A program made the translations under genes and the position numbers. From Verrucomicrobiales bacterium (GTDB lineage Bacteria; Verrucomicrobiota; Verrucomicrobiia; Limisphaerales; CANJXF01), in contig CANJXF010000042.1 of the NCBI GenBank assembly GCA_947478865.1, positions 1 to 38,447 of the forward strand: 38,447 bases of DNA. The letters are read 5' to 3'. Shown piece by piece: positions 6,425 through 34,271 of this stretch (position 1 is the stretch's first letter; each line of letters starts with the position of its first letter). A model generated the notes under the pieces. It searched no databases. It was not told the origin of the DNA and saw nothing but the letters and a program-made list of their open reading frames with translations.

Positions 6425-7282
6425 TTATTTTATCGCCGCACTACTGCGTTCCATAAACCAAGTGGTATCGAGAGTGTTATTCGCCGGAAAACCTTGATGG
6501 TCTCCCCGGATCACGGGTTGCACAGTTCCAGCCTTCGTGGCTCCGTTGTATTTATCAAGCCACTTCTTGATTTCGCTGTGTCCGTCGGCGAACCCAATTC
6601 CGCAGGCGCCATTGTGATAGCTTGCCGGCAAATCAGTCCAGCCTAGCCCACCGGGCATGCTATTGACCAACCAACCATCGTTGATGCTATCAGGATGCTC
6701 GTCCACGAATACCCAAACTCGGGATGGCGTTGGGCTTTTAATGTCGGAAAGCTTATGGTAGTTGTAGTAACCAGCGGTCGGGCTTGGACTGTCCAGCGTG
6801 CCATCAAGGTAGGCGTTCATCGAGACGCTTCGGACACGGGGCAGATTTGCTGACCTCATCACACAGGGATAGATGTCTCCAGGGCACTTGTAGATAGCAA
6901 CGTTCTTGGTATACGGCCCGATCTTGGCATTCTTGAGAAAGGCTGAATTCGTATTATCGATATTCCCAACACTGAAATCCAACCATCCTTCTACCCAACC
7001 GCCCCGGCTTGCGCTACCGCTGACGTTGGGAGGCAACCTATCCCGGTTGTCGTCGGCGTACATGATCCACGCCAGCGTCAGCTGCTTTTGATTGGCCATG
7101 CAGTAGATGCCCTGCGCTTTGACCTTGGCCTTGCTTAGGGCGGGCAGCAAAAGGCCGGCCAGAATCGCAATGATCGCAATGACGACGAGCAATTCAATGA
7201 GAGTGAAGCCATACTCGCGTTCATCCGACTTTATTGACGCGAGAGACGCCGAGATTTGTGATATTTTCACTGGTTTTATCAT
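6425..7282 (-). CDS. Prepilin-type N-terminal cleavage/methylation protein (H-X9-DG type), copy A
   Basis: The 285-residue protein starts with a 25-residue basic leader ending in YG, then [16 protein letters not shown], the type IV prepilin peptidase site with Glu+5 and a hydrophobic helix. The rest is a pseudopilin-like globular domain of the kind massively expanded in Planctomycetota and Verrucomicrobiota. Near the C-terminus is the H-X9-DG signature ([13 protein letters not shown]). It should be processed by PilD and sit at the membrane with its domain outside. The next gene upstream (7338-8156) is a close paralogue, 55 bases away. The function of this family is unsettled. Confidence 0.93.
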
Positions 7283-7337
7283 TTTTAATGTTTAGTAATG
7301 TTGGCACCGCGACTCACGGTTTTACTTCTCCTCTAAT

Positions 7338-8156
7338 TCACTGGATCGGTGCGGTGGATCTTTGCAGAAACCACAAGGTGTCGTTCGGGGCACTCCCACC
7401 TTGGCGCGGCTTTGTTTGTCTAGTCACCGATTCCAACGTGGCCTTATCCCTCCACTTGTGGATCTCGGCATGGCCGTCGGCAAAACCAATGCCACAGGCG
7501 GCGCCGTGATAACTTGCCGGCAAATCTCCCCATCCCCCGCCGCCAGGCCAACTGTCGGTCAGCCAGCCGTCGTTGATGCTGTCGGGGTGTTCATCCACAA
7601 ACACCCACAAATTGGACGGAGGGGGCCGCCTGATATCAGAACGCTTGCGGTATTCGTAACAAGGGGGCGTCTGCCTCGCGCCATAGCCTTCACCGGGGGA
7701 AACCCCGACAAAGGAATTCATGGAGACACTGCGGACACGGGGCATGCCTGTTTTTCCCGATACGAAGCACGGATAAATATCCGCCGGGCATTTGTAAATA
7801 CCAACGCTCTTGGTGTAGGGGCCAATCTTGGCATTCGTCAGGAACACCGTGTTCGTATTATCCTTGTTGCCAACATCAAAGCTCAGCCATCCATCCACCC
7901 AGCCGCCCCGGCTCGAGCTGCCGCTGGCGTTAGGCGGTACCTGGTCCTGGTTGTCGTCGGCATACATGATCCAAGCCAGGGTCAATTGCTTTTGATTGGA
8001 CATGCATTGGATGGCCTGGGCCTTGACCTTGGCTTTGCTCAAAGCCGGCAATAACAGCCCGGCAAGAATCGCGATGATAGCAATGACGACCAACAACTCG
8101 ATCAGTGTGAAGCCGCACTGGCGATCAACAGGGCTGTTGGAAGATGCAGACTTCAT
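7338..8156 (-). CDS. Prepilin-type N-terminal cleavage/methylation protein (H-X9-DG type), copy B
   Basis: The 272-residue protein has a short leader ending CG before [16 protein letters not shown]. Its body closely follows copy A: IMYADDN, then [51 protein letters not shown]. The tail has [13 protein letters not shown]. The two genes are a tandem duplication with moderate divergence. The four Cys of the globular domain are shared (CMSNQKQ, YKCP, IYPC, ACGIG), suggesting conserved disulphides in the exported part. Confidence 0.93.
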
Positions 8157-16520: not shown

Positions 16521-17345
16521 CTAGCGAAAGACCGCTCGTTGAACCCGCTTCAAGTCCACCAACGTATTTACATTACGGGTCTGCGTTGCGCTGACGGATA
16601 GATCCTGATCCACCGAGAGAACAATCCATCTCCATCGCTCGGCATGGCCGTCGGCGAAGGCAAAAATGCCGGACTGGCCATGACGAACCGTGGGAGAATT
16701 CTGCCATTCAGTGAGGCTGTTTGCATTCACCGCAAAGTAACCGTCGTCCAGCGTCAGGAGGCTTTCGTCCAAAAACACCATGGCCTCGGCTGGAGATGGA
16801 TCCTTCACCTCTGCCAGTTTTTTATATTGGGGATACTTGGCGCCTAAAACCCAACTCGTATCCGATGACCCGTTCTGCCCATCGCCGCCGCCCATCCGCC
16901 CTTGCATGGAATAGTGGCGCACCAAGGCCACGTTGCGCATGTAGGCCGGTCCATTCGCGGGACCGCCTTTGGCCGTAGGACATTGATAAACCCCCACGTT
17001 GGGATTGTATTTAAAGAGCAGCCCGTTGCGGATGGCGTTTAAATTTGTGGCGCCGGGCAAGTCATGCACACTCCCCACCGTCCCGTCAATCCAGGCGCTG
17101 GAACTGCCCAACCAGTTCGGGACCATCTTATCATTGAAATCGCCGGCATACATAATCCAGGCGGTCACGAGCTGTTTCTGATTGCTCACGCAGGTGATCG
17201 ATTGCGCCTTGATCTTGGCCTTGGTTAAGGCTGGCAGAAGCAGGCCGGCCAGGATCGCAATAATCGCGATCACGACCAAAAGTTCGATCAAAGTAAAGGC
17301 GCGTCGCGTCACACTTCCGATCCGCAGGCTGGAGTTGGTTTGCAT
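16521..17345 (-). CDS. Prepilin-type N-terminal cleavage/methylation protein (H-X9-DG type), copy C
   Basis: The 274-residue protein has a 15-residue leader ending in RA, then [18 protein letters not shown]. The globular part has [46 protein letters not shown] and the tail [17 protein letters not shown] (H-X9-DG). It is more distant from copies A and B than they are from each other. It is followed downstream by the PQQ-like gene and preceded by rapA, all on the - strand, with no obvious functional link. Confidence 0.92.
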
Positions 17346-26121: not shown

Positions 26122-27183
26122 CTAGAGCATGCCCCGGCCAAACATCTGCTGACTCAACGACTCAACGGCTTCCTCCAGCGCGGGCAACGAGGATGCAGGC
26201 CGGAGCTGGATTTGCAGTTCGTCGCAGAGCGGTTGAAGGACGGGTTGCAGGCGCGAACCGCCGATGAAGATTTTTTCCGGCAGGCTTTTGCCCATCAGAA
26301 GTGCCTTGACCAAGGTGCGTCCGGCGGCTTCGCCGGGGGTGAGCGCGCCGCTGGCCACATCCATTCCTACAACCAGGCCACGCTGTTTTTCCACGAGCAG
26401 GCTGAACCGGCCAAAGCACGGGCGTCCATTTTCAACGAACGAGCCGCCAGGCATCAGGGTGCAATCGAATTCACAGGCAAGGCCGGGTTCAGGCTTAAGC
26501 GCGCGGAGTTTTTCGAGTTGCGCGGCGGTCGCCTGGAACGGCTCCAAGCCGGTGAGCGGCGGCAGCAGGAGCGGTCGCCAGTCGAGGTCATCGGGCTTGA
26601 GCGGACGGTCGGGTAACGACACAGGCAGAAAGGGAATCTCCGTCACGTCGCGGTTGTCAAACAGGTCGGGCTGTTGCTCGAAAAGTTTGCAGAACGCAGT
26701 GAGGCGCGGGAGGTCAGCGAGCAGTTGATCCGCTTCGGCCCGGTTGATGTGCCACGGATGCCAGCCGGGCTCGGACGAACGGAACTGTGGCCAAACCAGA
26801 CCTTTGCCAGCGGGCTTGAACGCGGCGGCTTTCAGCACGGCGAGATCTTCCTTCGCGAGTTCGCGCTTGGGAACAAATTCGACCTTGAGGCAATCGATGC
26901 CGTCAACGTTGTTCAAATCTTCGGGATCGGATGAATCGCTGAGCATGGAGAGAATCCAGCGCAACCCCGCGCGCCGATAGAACACGGCGGCAAACACCTC
27001 GCCCGCGTTGCCAAGGACATGGCCGATGCGCGTCTCGCCGGTGACGGGATCAATGAGACCGACGGAATCGCTGTCACAGGCGAATCCCCACGGCTCAAGC
27101 GCGGCAAAGTCAGCGGTGGCGGCGAGCAAGGCACGCCAAGTTTCCGGAGCGACAGGCGGCGGCGGGGCGAGCTTGGTCGGCAT
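26122..27183 (-). CDS. Uncharacterised protein, resembles DUF6930 proteins
   Basis: From the ATG at 27183 the protein has 353 residues; longer starts (to 27345) would overlap thrS heavily. No signal peptide or membrane segment is seen. The C-terminal 110 residues have a layout I associate with DUF6930: FGRFSLLVEKQRGLVVGMDV, GRTLVKALLMGKSLPEKIFI, RLQPVLQPLCDELQIQL, then SSLPALEEAVESL. The N-terminal part has alternating Trp-rich segments (PETWRALLAATADFAALEPW, WPQFRSSEPGWHPWHI). No catalytic site was recognised. The gene starts 28 bases after the stop of the ThrRS C-half on the same strand and ends before the strong terminator, so it should share that transcript. Confidence 0.65.
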   Translation of the reverse strand: MPTKLAPPPPVAPETWRALLAATADFAALEPWGFACDSDSVGLIDPVTGETRIGHVLGNAGEVFAAVFYRRAGLRWILSMLSDSSDPEDLNNVDGIDCLKVEFVPKRELAKEDLAVLKAAAFKPAGKGLVWPQFRSSEPGWHPWHINRAEADQLLADLPRLTAFCKLFEQQPDLFDNRDVTEIPFLPVSLPDRPLKPDDLDWRPLLLPPLTGLEPFQATAAQLEKLRALKPEPGLACEFDCTLMPGGSFVENGRPCFGRFSLLVEKQRGLVVGMDVASGALTPGEAAGRTLVKALLMGKSLPEKIFIGGSRLQPVLQPLCDELQIQLRPASSLPALEEAVESLSQQMFGRGML

Positions 27184-27211: not shown

Positions 27212-28312
27212 TTACGCCCTGCGCTCTTTGATTGCTGCCAGAATATCCGCCACGACTTCCGCCTTCGGCTTCGCGCCGACGTTGCCTTTCCCATGCAAGC
27301 GCACGCTGATGTTGCCCGCTTCCACATCGCGCCCGCCGATGACAAGCATGGTGTGGACTTTCGCTGATTCCGCGTCGGCGATTTTCGCTTTGATCGGTTC
27401 GGGGCCGAGATCGCTGGTCACGCGGACTTCGGCGGCGCGGAGTTGTTGCGCGATGTCTTTGGCGTAGGCGATGAGATTGTCGTCGGCGTTGAGCGTCAGG
27501 ACGCGGACCTGTTCGGGCGCGAGCCAGAGCGGGAAGTTGCCCGCGTAATGCTCGATGAGGAAGCCGATGAACCGCTCATGTGTGCCGAGCGGCGCGCGAT
27601 GGATGCACAACGGTGTCTTGTTCGAGTTGTCCTTGTCGCGGTAGGTCAGGCCGAACTTGGCGGGCACGGCGAAGTCCACCTGATTCGTGGCGATGGTGAA
27701 CTCGCGGCCGATGGCGCTCCACACCTGCACGTCAATCTTTGGCCCGTAGAACGCCGCCTCGTTGGCGACCTCCACGTAGTTGATGCCGGATTCGATCAAC
27801 ACCTGGCGCACCATGTCCTCGGTCTTCTTCCACAACTCCGGCTCGTTGACGTATTTCTTGCCGAGCCCTTCCGCCGCGTGCGTGCTGAAACGCATCTGAT
27901 ATTTTTCCAGGCCGAAGATTTTGAAATACTTCAGATACATGTCGTTCACGGCGCGGAACTCGTCGGCGAACTGCTCCTCGGTGCAATAGATGTGCGCGTC
28001 GTTCATGTTGAGCGAACGCACGCGCATGAGGCCGAACAACTCGCCGCTCTGCTCGTAGCGATAGCAGGTGCCGTATTCCGCGAGGCGCAACGGCAAGTCG
28101 CGGTAACTGTGCGGTTCAGCCGCAAAGATGCGGTGGTGATGCGGACAGTTCATCGCTTTGAGGTAATAACTCTCCGGCTCGCCCAGTTTTTTCAATTCCG
28201 CGCGCAACGCGGACAACTCGTTGAACGCGGCGGTCACGGGCTGCGGCGCAACGCCGGCTTTGACGGCGGCTTCAACAGCAACAAATTCTTCGTCATTCAA
28301 AATGGCAGACAT
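27212..28312 (-). CDS. thrS: Threonyl-tRNA synthetase, C-terminal half of a split gene
   Basis: From the ATG at 28312 this is 366 residues: an amphipathic linker (1-47), then the ThrRS core from YYLKAMNCPHHH (zinc Cys56). Class II motif 2 is GTCYRYEQSGELFGLMRVRS with NDAHIYC (His107). PNEAAFYGPKID-like sequence (here ANEAAFYGPKID) comes next, and motif 3 with the zinc His is IHRAPLGTHERFIGF. The anticodon-binding domain starts at WLAPEQVRVLTL. It lacks the editing domain and motif 1, which are encoded at 33285-34271. The TTG at 28354 would overlap the preceding stop and adds 14 unlike residues. Alone it cannot be a complete synthetase; with the other half it could be. There is no clear ribosome site. 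Confidence 0.9.
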   Translation of the reverse strand: MSAILNDEEFVAVEAAVKAGVAPQPVTAAFNELSALRAELKKLGEPESYYLKAMNCPHHHRIFAAEPHSYRDLPLRLAEYGTCYRYEQSGELFGLMRVRSLNMNDAHIYCTEEQFADEFRAVNDMYLKYFKIFGLEKYQMRFSTHAAEGLGKKYVNEPELWKKTEDMVRQVLIESGINYVEVANEAAFYGPKIDVQVWSAIGREFTIATNQVDFAVPAKFGLTYRDKDNSNKTPLCIHRAPLGTHERFIGFLIEHYAGNFPLWLAPEQVRVLTLNADDNLIAYAKDIAQQLRAAEVRVTSDLGPEPIKAKIADAESAKVHTMLVIGGRDVEAGNISVRLHGKGNVGAKPKAEVVADILAAIKERRA

Positions 28313-28318
28313 GCCGGA
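28312..28318. repeat. 7-base direct repeat (copy 1) at the thrS break
   Basis: TGCCGGA here and at 33293-33299 flank the block that separates the thrS halves. Both copies have the same codon phase (TCC GGC A on the - strand). Joining the two at this sequence restores one continuous reading frame. Confidence 0.6.
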
Positions 28319-28350
28319 GAAAATAGCCGTCCGCGAACCGCAATGAAATC

Positions 28351-29190
28351 TCAATTTTTAACGCGGTAAAAGCGGTTGGCATTTGTGGCATTGGAGTCCG
28401 TGAATGATTGGAGGTAATTGTTTCCGGTGAATGGACCGGCAAATGTAGTCCAGTTGGTCGTAGCGAGGTTGGTGGAGACTTCCGCGTAGTAGGTTGCGCC
28501 GAGTTTTGTGCCGAAAGTCGCGGTGAATGAGTTCATCGTTTTAGTCGGCGATGAAATCGTCAGACCGGCTTGAAAATACAAATAGAAGATTTCTGACGGT
28601 GTGTGGATTGGGCCGCCGTCCGTGCCGTTGGCGGAGGTGTCGAGGATTTTGACGCCGAGCGTGTAGAGGCCGGGCACACTTGCCGCGAACGTGCGTCCGT
28701 GGATGTGGCCGTAGGGATCAGAGCCTGGCGAGCCGTCGCTCTCGCTCAAGTTGAAATGGTTCGCGCCATTCGTCGTGCCGACGGGAATTGTGAAGAGCGG
28801 ATTACTGACGGCGGGATTTCCCGCGTCCTGTTCCCAAACCGAGAACGCGCCATTCTGCGGGCCGGTGACGGAGACGAATTGCAGTTGCAGATACGCACCG
28901 TCCGCCGCGTGGCCGAAAGCCGGGCCGCCGTTGTCGGGTGTGGAAGCAAGCGCGGTGAATGTGAGTCCCGCACCTTGATACAAGTTCGAGAACGAACCGG
29001 CATTTGTGTAGCTCAGATATACATCATAGCCCGCGTTCGTCCCATAGACGTAACCGTTGACGAAATAAAGCTGGGCGTTCTGCGTGGTGTTGACTGCGCC
29101 CGCGTTGATATGGATGTGCTGGGCGCAAAGCAGACGCGGCCAGATCAAAATGGTTATTAGTGCAAAGATGAGTTTGATTTTTTCTTTCAT
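28351..29190 (-). CDS. Secreted HIHGR-motif protein, paralogue 1
   Basis: The 279-residue protein has a signal peptide (LIFALITILIWPRLLCA) and a mature start with HIHINAGA. The body has FTALASTPDNGGPAFG, IPVGTTNGANHFNLSE, DPYGHIHGRTFAASVPG, GGPIHTPSEIFYLYFQAGL. The HIHGR region followed by a ..S.PG.Y..G motif resembles the actinobacterial surface-anchored repeat (choice-of-anchor M type) often linked to metal uptake; that comparison is from memory. The C-terminal 70 residues (YYAEVSTNLATTNWTTF, ending RFYRVKN) form the shared tail domain. It lies three bases after the 29194-30048 paralogue. The His-rich features suggest metal binding, which is inference. Confidence 0.8.
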   Translation of the reverse strand: MKEKIKLIFALITILIWPRLLCAQHIHINAGAVNTTQNAQLYFVNGYVYGTNAGYDVYLSYTNAGSFSNLYQGAGLTFTALASTPDNGGPAFGHAADGAYLQLQFVSVTGPQNGAFSVWEQDAGNPAVSNPLFTIPVGTTNGANHFNLSESDGSPGSDPYGHIHGRTFAASVPGLYTLGVKILDTSANGTDGGPIHTPSEIFYLYFQAGLTISSPTKTMNSFTATFGTKLGATYYAEVSTNLATTNWTTFAGPFTGNNYLQSFTDSNATNANRFYRVKN

Positions 29191-29193
29191 TGG

Positions 29194-30048
29194 TCAGGGC
29201 AGATTGTTGAGTTGGCGAATCCGGTAAAAACGATTTCCGGTTGGCGCGTTTGTGTCGGTGAATGATTGAAGCGCGTTGTTGCCCCGCAAAGGTGCAGCGG
29301 CGGATTGCCAGTTGTTTGATGCGAGTGAACTGGTCGCTTCCAGCAAATTGCTGATGCCGGGCGGACTGCGAAAGGAGACGTTCACGCGGTTGGTGAAAGT
29401 TTGAATCGTTTCAATTCGTAACCCTGCTTGAAATCTCACCAGCAAAATGTCGGAAGGTGATTGAATCGGCCCGCCACCGACGCCGTTGGTGGAAAGGTCA
29501 ATCACACGGAAGCCCACGATGCAAGTTCCCGGCGCGCTCGTCGTGAACTCACGTCCGTGAATATGTCCGTATGGATCTGCGCCCGGCTCACCATTGTTTT
29601 CGCTGATGACCAAATAATTTGAACCGTTCGTTGTGCCGACTGGCACGCTGAAGGTGATGTTTCCCAAATCGCTCTCACCATCGCCTTCCCAAAAAGCGAA
29701 GCTGCCGCCGGGCGGTCCAGCCACGCTCACCACCTGCACCGCGAGTTGTGCGCCAAACGCGGCGCAACCGGAAATCGGCCCGCCATTGGGCGGCGTCGCA
29801 GCAAGCGCAGAAAACGTGAGCGCGTCGCCCCGATAGTAACCGGTGTTCAGTCCATTCGTGCGCAGGATTTGAGGCAAAGCGAAACTGCTTAAACTGGCAT
29901 CGAACAGATTGCCGTTACTAAAAACGAGTTTGTCGTTTTGGTTTGTGCCGAGTGCACCGGCGTAGATGTGAGTGTCTGCCCGGCCTGGGAGTGTGAAAAC
30001 TCCCAAGCCGAGCATTACCAAAACAAACTTGGTTGTGAATCTCCGCAT
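29194..30048 (-). CDS. Secreted HIHGR-motif protein, paralogue 2
   Basis: The 284-residue protein has a signal peptide (FVLVMLGLGVFTLPGRA) and mature start THIYAGALG. It matches paralogue 1 along its length: FSALAATPPNGGPISG, VPVGTTNGSNYLVISE, DPYGHIHGREFTTSAPG, GGPIQSPSDILLVRFQAGL, and a tail ending RFYRIRQLNNLP. The two are a tandem duplication, with only GA/GT spacing changes. The stop is followed after three bases by the start of paralogue 1, so they form one transcription unit with the gene upstream (30055-31002). Confidence 0.8.
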   Translation of the reverse strand: MRRFTTKFVLVMLGLGVFTLPGRADTHIYAGALGTNQNDKLVFSNGNLFDASLSSFALPQILRTNGLNTGYYRGDALTFSALAATPPNGGPISGCAAFGAQLAVQVVSVAGPPGGSFAFWEGDGESDLGNITFSVPVGTTNGSNYLVISENNGEPGADPYGHIHGREFTTSAPGTCIVGFRVIDLSTNGVGGGPIQSPSDILLVRFQAGLRIETIQTFTNRVNVSFRSPPGISNLLEATSSLASNNWQSAAAPLRGNNALQSFTDTNAPTGNRFYRIRQLNNLP

Positions 30049-30054
30049 GACGCT

Positions 30055-31002
30055 TCAAGGAACGTAGTTGTAACGGAAGAATTGCTGATTTGCTCCGCTG
30101 TCAAGCACGACGCCGGGTTTTCCATCCACGGTCACAGGTGCGTTGGTCACGTTCGCCCAAGTCGCGGGTGAGAGCGATGGCGTGGCTTGCAACGTCCAGT
30201 TAGTCGCCGTGCCGGAAGGCCAAGCAACGAAAACTTTTTGCGCGATGCTCAACGTGGGAGTCGGCGTGATCGCCATGGTCGCGGAAATGCCGCGAGCCGA
30301 CGCGGCTGTGCCGGCGGTTTTGTTTGCGATGTCGTTTCCACCAATCATGATGGTGTAATCGCCGGCAGCCAAAGCGAAGCTGCCAGTCACGCTGCCGCCA
30401 CTGGTGGTGGACGATGCCGAACCTTTGTAAGTGAACGTGGTCAACTGCGAAAAGTCGCCGGGCAAATCGCCGTCGCCGCCAATCTTCCACTCGCCAAGCG
30501 CGTTCCAACTGCCGTCGGTCGGCGCTTCGGTCGTGGCGTTGGTGTCAATGTTTTGCTGCACCCACCAAGTGCGCCACGCGACGGAAGAAGGACTGAAATC
30601 ATGATCCGGGCTCACCGGCAGATTAGTCCAGCCCACGGCAAACGGCGCGATGGCCGCGAGTCCAGAATAGATGGAAAACGCAGGCGTGAGGTCACCCAGC
30701 GAAGTTCCGGTGGCGAGAGGATTTGCGGCAACGGACAGTGTGACCAATGAGGAATTATCCAGATGAAACCGGAAGGCGCGGCCTTTGTGGCTGTCGCCAA
30801 GAACGCCGTCTGCGGCATCAGCCCAACCGAAGTTGCCGGTGCAGGTTTGATTGGTGATCGCCTTGACACCGTTCGTCAGGCCGGAAAAAGCCCCGAAGTC
30901 GCGTCCCGAATATGTCAGGTGAGCTTGGGCATATTGGCTTGTAGCGAGAACGCCCACCGCGAGGATTGTGCCGAATACATTTTTAAGTTTCATAACTTTC
31001 AT
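30055..31002 (-). CDS. Secreted protein with shared tail domain, function unknown
   Basis: The 315-residue protein has a signal peptide (GTILAVGVLATSQYAQA) directly followed by HLTYSGRDFGAF. The middle reads like a lectin or calcium-dependent beta-sandwich (AFRFHLDNSSLVTLSV, TPAFSIYSGLAAI, FALAAGDYTIMIGGNDIA), a layout common in exported pre-peptidase C-terminal-like (PPC-type) domains. The end (WTLQATPSLSPATWANVTNAP and NQQFFRYNYVP) is the tail domain of the neighbouring secreted proteins. It ends six bases before the next gene. No enzyme signature was seen. Confidence 0.75.
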   Translation of the reverse strand: MKVMKLKNVFGTILAVGVLATSQYAQAHLTYSGRDFGAFSGLTNGVKAITNQTCTGNFGWADAADGVLGDSHKGRAFRFHLDNSSLVTLSVAANPLATGTSLGDLTPAFSIYSGLAAIAPFAVGWTNLPVSPDHDFSPSSVAWRTWWVQQNIDTNATTEAPTDGSWNALGEWKIGGDGDLPGDFSQLTTFTYKGSASSTTSGGSVTGSFALAAGDYTIMIGGNDIANKTAGTAASARGISATMAITPTPTLSIAQKVFVAWPSGTATNWTLQATPSLSPATWANVTNAPVTVDGKPGVVLDSGANQQFFRYNYVP

Positions 31003-31029
31003 ACTGTGAATTTTTTCTTGGTTAATTTT

Positions 31030-31665
31030 TTACGGATTGCCATCGGGCCGCACGAGGCGGTCACCGGTGGACTGGATTTGTTGAATGACTTTTGACCACG
31101 CGAGCCGTTCGACGTGTCCGTCGGCAAATAGATAATTCGCCGAACTTGCATGGCGCTTCACCGCGACCTGTTGCGGAAACACGGCGACGGAATAACCGCC
31201 ACTGGACGCGTCCGCAAAATGGAAGTGGTCCGAGCCATCATATTGGTCGTCACACTCCGCCATCCAGAAGGTCGCCGATGGAGACGGCATGGTTGTCAGT
31301 TTGGAAAAGTCCAACTGCGGCGCGCCGAACGGATGCGGGGTCAGGAAGTCGTTGACTGCATAACTGTAAAGACGCTGTTCATTCTTGTCGTCCGGGCAGC
31401 GAAACACGTTTGTGCCCGTGTCCCGTTGCAGCGTGCCCACCCACGACGCGTGCTCATGCGAAGTCATGGGCAGCTTGTCGTTGTTATCGCCGCAATACAT
31501 CACCGCGCCCAATCCAATCTGCTTGAGATTGGACAGGCATCGCGTTGCCCGCGCCTTGGCCTTGGCTTGGCTCAACGCAGGCAGGAGCAACGCCGCGAGG
31601 ATTGCGATTATCGCAATCACCACGAGCAACTCAATCAATGTAAAGGCAGCGTTACGGGAACGCAT
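31030..31665 (-). CDS. Prepilin-type N-terminal cleavage/methylation protein (H-X9-DG type), copy D
   Basis: From the ATG at 31665 the protein has 211 residues: leader RSRNAA, then [20 protein letters not shown]. The body is shorter than in copies A-C ([44 protein letters not shown]). The C-terminal tail [13 protein letters not shown] fits H-X9-DG. It is the only prepilin-type gene inside the block between the thrS halves, on the same strand as its neighbours and 27 bases upstream of the secreted-protein operon, with which it is probably co-transcribed. Confidence 0.9.
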
Positions 31666-31778
31666 GACGGACGGCTGAATCAACAGCGTTTGGAATCAAA
31701 CGGAAATGTTCACACCCAGCACACGGCTTGGGTGAACAGAAACAACTCCGCCGGAGCGGAGAACAATCGAAGAAGTAA

Positions 31779-32159
31779 TCAGGCCGTTCGGGGCGGCGGC
31801 ACGGGCGGGGTGGTGGAGAAGGAAGCGGGTAATTCAACGCGCCATCCAACCAGCGTGAATGCGGACGGCGTGGCAAAAACAAAAGGTGAAGTTTGGCTCA
31901 CGAACTCAAACTTCTTGAGCGTGGGCATCGAGGCTTCTTTTTTTTCCTCGGATTTTTTCCCGGCCTTGATTGCTTTGCAAAGCGGACAAGGATGCTCGCC
32001 GTCGAAAGTCTTACTCACAGCCTCGGTCAAAGAATCATTTGCGGAAAGGTTTGCCGCGATCATCGTCGTCCACGCCACGGATTGCAGCAACGCCCAATGC
32101 CCGCCGAGCGAGAGCGTCAGCGTCAACACGACCAGCCACTTGGACAGGCGGAGCAACAT
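31779..32159 (-). CDS. Small membrane protein with CPLC motif (possibly DUF2946-like)
   Basis: From the ATG at 32159 the protein has 126 residues. One hydrophobic helix (KWLVVLTLTLSLGGHWALLQ) is followed by an exported part with GEHPCPLCKAIKAGKKSEEKK. The C-terminal 50 residues are Pro- and Thr-rich. The CPxC with an adjacent His could bind a metal; the layout recalls DUF2946 proteins, some of which accompany copper genes, but the resemblance is weak. The longer TTG start at 32201 is less likely. It is 114 bases upstream of the prepilin-type gene. Confidence 0.6.
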   Translation of the reverse strand: MLLRLSKWLVVLTLTLSLGGHWALLQSVAWTTMIAANLSANDSLTEAVSKTFDGEHPCPLCKAIKAGKKSEEKKEASMPTLKKFEFVSQTSPFVFATPSAFTLVGWRVELPASFSTTPPVPPPRTA

Positions 32160-32249
32160 CGCGCCCAAGCTAGAGGAACGCAGTGCCACATCAAAGGACA
32201 AAATACAGCCTCCATTTCTGGAAGCTGTCGCGTTTTCTGAATTTAATTT

Positions 32250-32951
32250 TTATGGACTTGGCGGCGTTGGCGGTTTGGGCTTCACGTTCGCTTTCGCTTT
32301 GCCACCGCCCGAATCCACAATGATGCGGGCGTTGTTGTAGTCTTCCACAAACTTCGCATTTGCGGCGGCGAACTGCGGCACAAGCGCGTCCATCTGATCG
32401 TTCAACGCGGCATCGGCGGCATCAAACTCATCAGACATTTGCTTGGTGGCGGTCGAACCAGAGGCCACGGCGTCACGCGGTTTGGACAGGCTCGCGGAGT
32501 AGGCATCAATTTTCGCCTTGAGCGCGGTGAGCTTGGCAGCGGTCACGCCATAGGGCGCAAGGTTGGCTAGGTTCGCCGTCGCGGCGGCGTGGATGTTCAA
32601 CGCGTTGGTCGCGGCGAGGGTGTCGCGGCCTTCCATGTAGGTGCTGACGCTCACGTTCGTCTTGGCGGCGAGGTCGTTGTTCTTGACCTTCTTGGCGTAG
32701 GCGTTGGTGGCGAGGGCAACTTCCACGGTGGCGGTAGCCATCGTTTTGCGGAGGGCTTCTTTGTCGGCAGAAAGACCGGTGGAATCCACGGCTTGGCTCT
32801 GCGCGAGGTTTTGGATGTTAATGACGCGCGCGCCGAAATCGGCGTAGCCGTCAACGAATGCCTGCAATGTTTGCCAGGTGCTGTTATTGCGGTCGCAAAC
32901 TGCCTTTACCGCAAGATACATGGATAACTTGTTTTCTTGCTTGGAGGTCAT
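32250..32951 (-). CDS. Helical protein of unknown function beside the 21-base array
   Basis: From the ATG at 32951 the protein has 233 residues; a TTG at 32987 is possible. It opens TSKQENKLSMYLAVKAVCD and is Ala-rich and helical throughout (DKEALRKTMATATVEVALA, YGVTAAKLTALKAKIDAYSA, FDAADAALNDQMDALV), ending NARIIVDSGGGKAK plus a Pro-Lys tail. No signal peptide, membrane segment or catalytic motif is seen. The pattern is that of a four-helix or coiled-coil bundle. I recognise the type (short, helical, KQENKLSMY opening and a closing IIxxGGGK) only as recurring hypothetical proteins of several phyla; no function is known to me. Its start abuts the tandem array, so the two may belong together. 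Confidence 0.65.
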   Translation of the reverse strand: MTSKQENKLSMYLAVKAVCDRNNSTWQTLQAFVDGYADFGARVINIQNLAQSQAVDSTGLSADKEALRKTMATATVEVALATNAYAKKVKNNDLAAKTNVSVSTYMEGRDTLAATNALNIHAAATANLANLAPYGVTAAKLTALKAKIDAYSASLSKPRDAVASGSTATKQMSDEFDAADAALNDQMDALVPQFAAANAKFVEDYNNARIIVDSGGGKAKANVKPKPPTPPSP

Positions 32952-32989
32952 ACGAGGAAAAGGTAAAAAATCCGTATCGTTCGTCAACC

Positions 32990-33283
32990 CGAAAATGGCG
33001 GGAAGTCGGGAGCAAATCCGGTGACGACGGGAGGCAGATTGGCTACGCCAATCGCCAGCTTCGGGAAGTCCAAAACCACTGGCAAAAATTAGCCAGTCAG
33101 AGCGGAGAAGTCGCCTGACAGATGCAGGAAGTCAGCCGCCAGCATCGAGAAGTTGACCGCCAGATGCGTGACGACGGCTGACAGATACGCCAATTTAACT
33201 GACAGAACCGCCAAGTCTGATTCCAGACCGGCCAATTAACCCGTCAGCATCGCCAAGCCAAGTGGCAGACGCGCCAAGTCTTA
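32990..33283. repeat. 14-copy, 21-base degenerate tandem array
   Basis: Fourteen imperfect 21-base units run head to tail with no spacers. On the + strand, most units start with a codon like CGN, AGN or TGA, then CAG, and have a core near CGCCAAGT or GGAAGT. Read in frame, units give heptads such as RQLREVQ, RQHREVD and RQHRQAK, interrupted by stops (TGA in units 7, 10 and 11). The - strand frame gives hydrophobic heptads (LAVLSVK, LAYLSAV) with a few stops. It is not a CRISPR array (no spacers). It lies exactly between the 32250-32951 gene and the stop of the ThrRS N-half. Confidence 0.85.
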
Positions 33284-33284
33284 T

Positions 33285-34271
33285 TCACGGATTGCCGGAC
33301 GCGGGTGAGCCATCCTTTTTCGCGTGGTCGGAAAGTTGTTTCTCCAGTTCGGCGATGCGTTGCTCGATGTCCTTGCGGTCGGCGCGGTGTTCGTCCATTT
33401 CCATTTTCGGAAACATGGACTCCGCGTAATACGGCAGATGGCCAGAGGTTTTATACATTTTCTCCTTGGCCAAATGCGGCGTGCGGACGCGGACGTAGCC
33501 GGCGGCAAATTCGGTTTCCTTGGCCAGCTTCTCCAGTTCCTCGACTAGCACCGTGCCCTTGGGCAGCCACAGCGGCATGCCCGGCCCGACAAATTCCGTG
33601 TCAATCGCGAACAGCCCCATCTCCGCGCCGATCTTGCGATGGTCGCGACGCTTGGCCTCCTCGAGCATCTTGAAATACTCGTCGAGTGCGGTCTTGTTCT
33701 TGAACGCCGTGCCGTAGATGCGCTGGAGCTGCGGGCCTTTTTCGTCGCCCTTGTAATACGCGGCGGCCACGCTGGTGAGCTTGAACGCCCCGATGTTGCC
33801 CGTGCGCATCACATGCGGCCCGGCGCAGAGATCGATGAAATCGCCATTCTTGAAATAGGAAATCGGCTCGTTCTCCGGAATGTTCTGCACGATGTCCAAC
33901 TTGAACTTCGACGGGACCTGGCGGTCGGCCACAGCGGCAAGCCGACCGTTCTGTGCGTCTTTCAAAGCCTGTTCGCGCGTGACGACCACTTTTTCAAACG
34001 GCTGATTGGCTTTGGTGATCGCCTTCATCTCCGCCTCGATCTTCGGGAAATCTTCCGGCGAAATGCGATGCGACAATTCTACGTCGTAATAAAAACCATT
34101 TTCGACCGGCGGCCCGGCGGCGAATTGCGCTTCCGGCCAGATTTTCAAAATCGCCGTCGCGAGCACGTGCGCGCACGAGTGGCGCAAGCGTTCGAGGTCG
34201 GTCATTTTCGCGCGGTCATCGAGACTTTTGCGTTCCGGATTCGGTTGCGGCGGCTGATTTTCTTCGTCCAT
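33285..34271 (-). CDS. thrS: Threonyl-tRNA synthetase, N-terminal half of a split gene
   Basis: The 328-residue protein lacks the N-terminal TGS domain and starts with the editing domain: RHSCAHVLATAI (His31, His35) and DLCAGPHV (Cys149, His153), the residues that hydrolyse Ser-tRNA(Thr). Class II motif 1 (GPGMPLWLPKGTVLVEELEK, about 229-248) and RTPHLAKEKMYKTSGHLPYY follow. After YYAESMFPKMEMDE it continues into a charged helix (RKDIEQRIAELEKQLSDHAKK) and ends with SPASGNP. Motifs 2 and 3 and the anticodon-binding domain are encoded 5 kb away at 27212-28312. The break falls in the linker between motifs 1 and 2, so both halves keep folded domains. There is a long helix at this end and another at the start of the C-half that could pair. 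Confidence 0.9.
   Translation of the reverse strand: MDEENQPPQPNPERKSLDDRAKMTDLERLRHSCAHVLATAILKIWPEAQFAAGPPVENGFYYDVELSHRISPEDFPKIEAEMKAITKANQPFEKVVVTREQALKDAQNGRLAAVADRQVPSKFKLDIVQNIPENEPISYFKNGDFIDLCAGPHVMRTGNIGAFKLTSVAAAYYKGDEKGPQLQRIYGTAFKNKTALDEYFKMLEEAKRRDHRKIGAEMGLFAIDTEFVGPGMPLWLPKGTVLVEELEKLAKETEFAAGYVRVRTPHLAKEKMYKTSGHLPYYAESMFPKMEMDEHRADRKDIEQRIAELEKQLSDHAKKDGSPASGNP
33293..33299. repeat. 7-base direct repeat (copy 2) at the thrS break
   Basis: TGCCGGA, the partner of 28312-28318. It lies within the codons Ser-Gly of the N-half end, four codons before its stop. Confidence 0.6.

Follow-up and report, generated by a model that had tools for sequence, protein, structure and literature searches.

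The window analyzed here is a 38,447-nucleotide stretch, contig C42 (CANJXF010000042.1), of a Verrucomicrobiales bacterium whose genome amounts to 4.4 Mb in 114 contigs and is 97.3% complete. It encodes threonyl-tRNA synthetase (ThrRS, gene thrS) as two open reading frames (ORFs) on the same strand (Table 1). The first, of 328 amino acids (aa), carries the editing domain and class II motif 1 and is referred to as the N-half; the second, of 366 aa when counted from the ATG at 28312, carries motifs 2 and 3, the zinc-site columns and the anticodon-binding domain and is referred to as the C-half. Both frames are open without an internal stop, and about 5.0 kb lies between the stop codon of the N-half and the start codon of the C-half. 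Genomes and loci used for comparison are identified by numbers preceded by G and L, respectively.

The TIGR00418 model matched the N-half over model positions 1-256 (33387-34184, minus strand; 240 bits, E 6e-71) and the C-half over positions 256-561 (27242-28174, minus strand; 346 bits, E 4e-103). The two matches abut at position 256 and jointly cover positions 1-561 of the model, and neither score (346 and 240 bits) reaches the cut-off of 383.65 bits set for a single chain. Pfam assigned tRNA_SAD (PF07973) to the N-half and tRNA-synt_2b (PF00587) and HGTP_anticodon (PF03129) to the C-half. In the alignment to Staphylococcus aureus ThrRS (1nyq), the N-half corresponds to residues 69-326 and the C-half to residues 322-638; the TGS domain is absent from the window ThrRS. 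Residues C56, H107, H238, and R247 of the C-half, together with many more columns, were invariant among 25 rows, and the first three are presumably the zinc-site positions. The first-pass annotation of this DNA, made without database searches, had described thrS as two separated halves free of internal stops and with family motifs kept, and the model, the Pfam matches and the alignment to 1nyq bear this out.

The split lies between motifs 1 and 2, which in S. aureus ThrRS are separated by a gap of a few residues. Across the order, this part of thrS varies extremely in both its length and its sequence, the linker having about 3-32 aa in many members of the group, 40-111 aa in others and 216-243 aa in some. 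The window linker consists of a 38-aa tail on the N-half and a 48-aa head on the C-half, 86 aa in all. The break had been placed in the motif 1-motif 2 linker from the outset, and that position stands, but the element that is cut is a lineage-specific insert of about 86 aa and not the short linker usual in ThrRS. Comparison within a set of 75 linkers detected relatives of the tail and the head in uncut linkers of intact thrS genes: L226 contained a relative of the tail (E 5e-12), the head part of its linker reaching only E 0.03, L142 a relative of the head (E 2e-6) and of the tail (E 5e-4) and L157 a relative of the head (E 1e-3). Since they have relatives within intact enzymes, the tail and the head are parts of the enzyme.

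Structure models were consistent with this assignment. In the AlphaFold model of the intact L142 enzyme, for which Foldseek ranked S. aureus ThrRS first, the linker formed helices at residues 288-312, 324-335, and 341-359, with pLDDT of 85-96 over blocks 291-360. The window C-half modeled alone had head helices at residues 7-18 and 24-42, with pLDDT of 80-91 over blocks 11-40. As modeled, the split point is the loop after the first of the three linker helices, in agreement with an earlier proposal of a long charged helix on either side of the break. The intact ThrRS of L138, L140, and L128 have linkers of 216-241 aa that contain an in-frame IS200-like transposase domain (Y1_Tnp, barely over the cut-off in L140), and sequence similar to these linkers was found in L098 and L082.

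The same tail and head recur in many genomes. Profiles built from 17 genomes for the head (48 positions) and from 15 for the tail (35 positions) were run on 320 genomes of the order and matched 30 and 34 of them, respectively, when weak and partial matches are counted. A complete N-half ending in the tail, in an open frame of 318-424 aa, was detected in 22 of the 320 genomes, and 20 of these 22 also had the C-half head, some of the C-halves being cut by a contig end; the head profile gave no match in G175 and G242, both of which have a complete N-half. The class-wide set of 384 genomes yielded five matches outside the order, and four genomes there are true splits (G359, G455, G493, and G610). 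G464 was rejected as an independent split because both contig ends carry the same gene piece, and it was taken to be an intact gene broken by assembly. Both halves were detected in 24 genomes that represent 13 family codes and at least two orders of the class, and every one of the 24 pairs has the conserved charged tail on the N-half and the helical head on the C-half. Records with a split pair include WYBW01000009.1, CAIVQH010000041.1, SXTU01000169.1, and JALOTT010000156.1.

Split and intact thrS exclude one another. No other thrS was found in the window genome, the third-best TIGR00418 match scoring 59.7 bits, and an intact, contiguous thrS was found in none of the 24 draft genomes with the pair. 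When a sample of 196 genomes was scored by the cut-off, none of the 16 with a split N-half had thrS above it on one frame, compared with 150 of the 180 others (Fisher p 8e-12, to be taken as a guide only because the genomes are related). G154 and G028 scored over the cut-off as a single frame (1076 and 1066 aa, respectively), which reflects two half matches summed; because that frame contains 21 and 12 stops, respectively, from the N-half stop to the C-half core, they were counted as split. In G161 and G181, thrS lies in shifted frames, and these were set aside as likely sequence errors.

Purifying selection acts on both halves. Ratios of nonsynonymous to synonymous substitution rates (dN/dS) relative to the window were 0.12-0.26 for the N-half and 0.14-0.36 for the C-half, with 10 genomes each. 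For the cores, the ratio of the proportions of nonsynonymous and synonymous differences (pN/pS) came close to that of intact enzymes: 0.27 in split and 0.20 in intact genes for the N-half, and 0.24 and 0.23, respectively, for the C-half.

A complete class II catalytic domain is present on neither half, and the two must therefore assemble. The reading that fits these data far better than any other, and one that we hold to be very probable, is a ThrRS that obligatorily comes from two genes, its class II catalytic domain being divided between motifs 1 and 2. ThrRS would be made as two polypeptides, with the editing domain and motif 1 on one and, on the other, the zinc site, the two remaining motifs (2 and 3) and the domain that binds the anticodon. 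The active site would most likely be re-formed through the native domain core and a linker domain made of helices and broken at a loop, with the charged tail helix of the N-half packing on the two head helices of the C-half. Motif 1 forms the dimer interface of class II synthetases, and for this reason the working form is probably (N-C)2. The sequences document intact halves with no other thrS found, the recurrence of the pair, its mutual exclusion with intact thrS, purifying selection, the conserved tail and head and their uncut linker homologs; assembly, stoichiometry and activity are our inference. The first-pass annotation had raised a two-subunit ThrRS and proposed a search for a second copy, a selection analysis and a comparison of relatives; the single thrS, the purifying selection and the recurrence all favor a functional split.

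Several observations weigh against this conclusion. The motif 2 region had pLDDT below 50 in the models of both the C-half and the intact relative, the models do not address the interface, and the alignment that underlies the L142 model contains C-half heads that MAFFT put in the wrong place. The N-half core is somewhat less constrained in split genomes (pN/pS 0.27 in 11 genomes) than in intact ones (0.20 in 18), and pN/pS is higher still for the tail (0.47) and the head (0.61), each of which nonetheless has six invariant columns. No clear co-divergence was detected between the N-half and C-half cores of split pairs (Mantel r 0.41, p 0.08). The named split records are all metagenome-assembled genomes (MAGs). 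Of 59 genomes of the order that had no clear intact thrS match listed before, 15 gave no thrS match at E 1e-19 when searched again; failure to find an intact copy in a single assembly is therefore weak evidence, and it is the exclusion across genomes that counts. Four genomes given as 93-97% complete (G025, G029, G055, and G087) gave no thrS match at E 1e-19, from missing assembly or something else. Lastly, the tree of joined N-half and C-half cores does not group the split rows, which are interspersed with intact ones; 15 split rows need 14 changes against a shuffled mean of 14.5. This tree was built from 126 of 151 rows (25 divergent, short, cut or near-duplicate rows were left out, and 28 duplicates had been removed earlier).

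From the sequences compared, the mixed tree appears to reflect transfer and recombination, and it neither supports nor excludes a single origin, in favor of which the common tail and head speak. Fragments of the halves are scattered at and beyond these loci. In L214, a full N-half is followed by three truncated N-half tails among other genes and finally by the C-half; two tails and two heads are present in L215; and a truncated C-half lies between the halves of L070. Tail or head fragments also occur in genomes with a contiguous thrS (G170, G084, and G239). Together with the mixed core tree, these scars indicate that the locus was often exchanged. Extra 3' fragments of thrS were seen near thrS in L069/L154, L078, L083, L091, L094/L109, and L098.

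The halves are not always neighbors. In 18 of the 24 genomes they are on one contig and one strand, N-half before C-half and 0.6-8.2 kb apart, and in six they are on different contigs (G003, G199, G272, G455, G493, and G610). The separation in G272 may be due just to a contig end near the N-half. In the genus of G455, G493, and G610, the N-half locus and the C-half locus each have their own conserved neighbors: beside the N-half, 2.4 kb is common to G610 and G493 and 1.1 kb to G610 and G455, and a stretch of 4.9 kb that includes the C-half is common to G610 and G493. In G610, no partner half was found within 17 kb 5' of the C-half or 11.9 kb 3' of the N-half. A 650-bp block near the N-half in G610 resembles a block about 5 kb 5' of the C-half in G493 (L244 15662-16311 and L264 4-653).

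Other explanations of the pair fare poorly. If the halves were the remains of a broken thrS and another enzyme charged tRNA-Thr, the orphan thrS fragments in these genomes and the lack of a thrS match in some MAGs would fit; this is nevertheless very improbable, as no intact thrS was found in any pair genome while TIGR00418 detected even archaeal ThrRS in control genomes, and both halves are under purifying selection with their active-site columns kept. We give an equally slight chance to joining of the halves into one normal chain after transcription or translation, whether by an intron, trans-splicing, a split intein or stop read-through. The colinear order on one strand in most pair genomes is what such joining would call for. 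Against it, between the N-half stop and the C-half core of the window there are 25-49 stops in each frame, and in 13 of 15 intervals counted the N-half frame has 12-60 stops, the other two being L177 with 7 and L074 with 8, the N-half's own stop included. That stop codon itself varies (TGA, TAA, and TAG). A scan of the window found no Rfam intron, the sole match over the Rfam threshold being a tRNA, and Pfam detected no intein family in either window half. The occurrence of tail and head relatives inside intact enzymes, the lack of common sequence among most intervals and the separate N-half and C-half loci in one genus also argue against joining. An assembly artefact that fused unrelated contigs, named in the first-pass annotation as a refutation, could be imagined for MAG-like data in 114 contigs and is hardly credible when the arrangement is repeated across many assemblies, on contigs of up to 433 kb, with the tail and head alike each time. 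Trans-editing of the archaeal type, by a free editing protein beside a complete catalytic ThrRS, would place the editing domain on one of two genes as here, but deserves next to no credence since part of the catalytic domain, that with motif 1, also lies on the N-half, and the C-half begins only beyond it.

Table 1. Features of the split thrS locus in the window (positions in the window; a dot denotes no strand).
Feature	Position	Strand	Basis
ThrRS N-half (editing/SAD domain, class II motif 1)	33285..34271	-	TIGR00418, PF07973, alignment to 1nyq
ThrRS C-half (motifs 2 and 3, zinc-site columns, anticodon-binding domain)	27212..28312	-	TIGR00418, PF00587, PF03129, 1nyq
Conserved C-terminal tail of N-half, charged, helix-like	33288..33407	-	6 columns invariant among 15 split genomes
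Conserved N-terminal head of C-half, two predicted helices	28169..28312	-	6 columns invariant among 17 genomes
Putative promoter-like block, about 46 nt, immediately upstream of the C-half ATG and containing a TATTTT box	28313..28358	-	Similar block in other loci
Interval of about 5.0 kb separating the halves, with six ORFs in the orientation of the halves	28313..33284	.	ORF list
Degenerate repeats directly after the N-half stop	33000..33284	.	Family D1 at 33188-33286
ORF of unknown function 3' of N-half	32250..32954	-	No Pfam match; 95% identical ORF in the same place in G266 (L221)
ORF of unknown function	31779..32201	-	ORF list, Pfam scan
Pseudopilin-like ORF (N_methyl, DUF1559 start)	31030..31683	-	PF07963, PF07596
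ORF of unknown function	30055..31002	-	No family in Pfam or NCBIfam
ORF of unknown function, apparent paralog of the 28351..29190 ORF	29194..30048	-	No Pfam/NCBIfam family; 62-nt repeat D2 common to both
ORF of unknown function directly 5' of C-half	28351..29190	-	No Pfam/NCBIfam family; repeat D2

The C-half may have its own expression signals. The block that ends at its ATG was alike in 12 of 13 loci compared, three of the 12 being truncated heads and L221 being the exception, and judging from its sequence, the TATTTT shortly before the ATG looks like the -10 box of a leaderless start. A second type of locus has the C-half directly after a small gene, which is HicA in L154 and L072 and the partner of a DUF433 gene in L104. 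This partner, which we take to be toxin-like, had no family in Pfam or NCBIfam. In L177, L214, L215, and L217, the C-half is preceded by ORFs similar to such small genes.

In the window interval, Pfam and NCBIfam scans detected no toxin-antitoxin or restriction-modification gene, which speaks against making such cargo part of the mechanism here. Text like the repeats after the N-half stop also follows the N-half stop in L075, L216, and L221. A common prepilin-like N-terminus was seen on four ORFs of the window (6425-7282, 7338-8156, 16521-17345, and 31030-31683, all on the minus strand; Pfam was run on the last). In the window, the C-half is followed by a DUF7309/DUF6930 gene (26125-27183, minus strand), and in L154 such a gene (6546-7658) comes after the N-half; the two are 84% identical over 352 columns.

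The content of the intervals in relatives was compared with that of their flanks (81 ORFs in 18 intervals totaling 64.8 kb vs. 129 flank ORFs at the same 18 loci, 141 kb). Among the 25 of 63 PADLOC families listed for the intervals were methyltransferases, type II restriction enzymes and DarTG, none of which was among the nine families of the flanks, a list that is complete at E 1e-10 and includes IetA, Csa3, and mad2. Pfam detected RE_AccI, DNA methylases, HicA, DarT, and a nucleotidyltransferase pair in the intervals and ordinary metabolism in the flanks, the latter among 25 of 121 families listed. The interval lists held 63 and 49 families, of which 25 were listed each, and rarer families may be missed. 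Between interval and flank ORFs, phmmer (E 1e-3) found a single pair, the DUF7309 gene, which is neither toxin nor restriction gene. A toxin-antitoxin or restriction-modification gene was present in 8 of the 18 intervals (L066, L067, L070, L072, L074, L076, L154, and L221); the cargo of L221 is a methyltransferase only, the L074 interval is DarTG alone and the nucleotidyltransferase pair of L076 is, we assume, a toxin-antitoxin system. No integrase was among the interval families listed, where mobile families were represented by two Y1_Tnp ORFs only, and most intervals have nothing in common with one another.

One possible account of this cargo, which we advance tentatively and consider less probable than its negation, is that the split thrS offers addiction modules a stable landing site. 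Toxin-antitoxin or restriction-modification cassettes would settle between the halves, with the C-half sometimes right after a toxin gene, and the conserved halves on either side would provide the homology through which recombination could carry the whole block from one species to another. Deletion of the cargo would put an essential enzyme at risk, and orphan tails and heads would be the scars of past exchanges. The essential enzyme would then be the vehicle, and its division the price.

Synthetases rank with the most highly conserved enzymes, and few of them come in two-gene versions. Compared with bacterial ThrRS (TIGR00418; S. aureus 1nyq and Escherichia coli 1qf6), the window enzyme has the same motifs and the same domains in the same order, distributed over two chains; it differs in the cut between motifs 1 and 2, the extra helical linker of about 86 aa and the lack of the TGS domain. 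Zhao and colleagues are said to have described, in 2005, an alpha/beta leucyl-tRNA synthetase of Aquifex aeolicus, a class I enzyme reportedly encoded by two genes and cut in an insertion of the catalytic domain. It is likewise divided inside the catalytic domain but is another enzyme, of another class and fold. The alanyl-tRNA synthetase (AlaRS) of Nanoarchaeum equitans (NEQ 211-547) is a class II synthetase made from two genes and unsplit in a relative (PMC3655853). Its host differs in being an archaeon with a reduced genome. Its cut presumably lies elsewhere in the protein than that of the window ThrRS. In archaeal ThrRS with a free ThrRS-ed, the editing and aminoacylation parts are on different genes, and the shortened ThrRS lacks the editing domain only, whereas here the catalytic domain itself is divided (PMC7373986). 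No report of a split ThrRS was found in the openly licensed PMC literature. We know of no two-gene ThrRS and of no synthetase cut between motifs 1 and 2 of the class II core.

A full-length thrS model scores genomes with the split enzyme as lacking a match over the cut-off. The presence of the pair in many lineages, together with intact relatives that have a related, uncut linker, would allow a stepwise study of how an obligate subunit interface is gained. Intact, split and separated states are all represented, and defense and toxin genes lie in the gap; this mix makes it possible to test what becomes of an essential gene when insertions recur.

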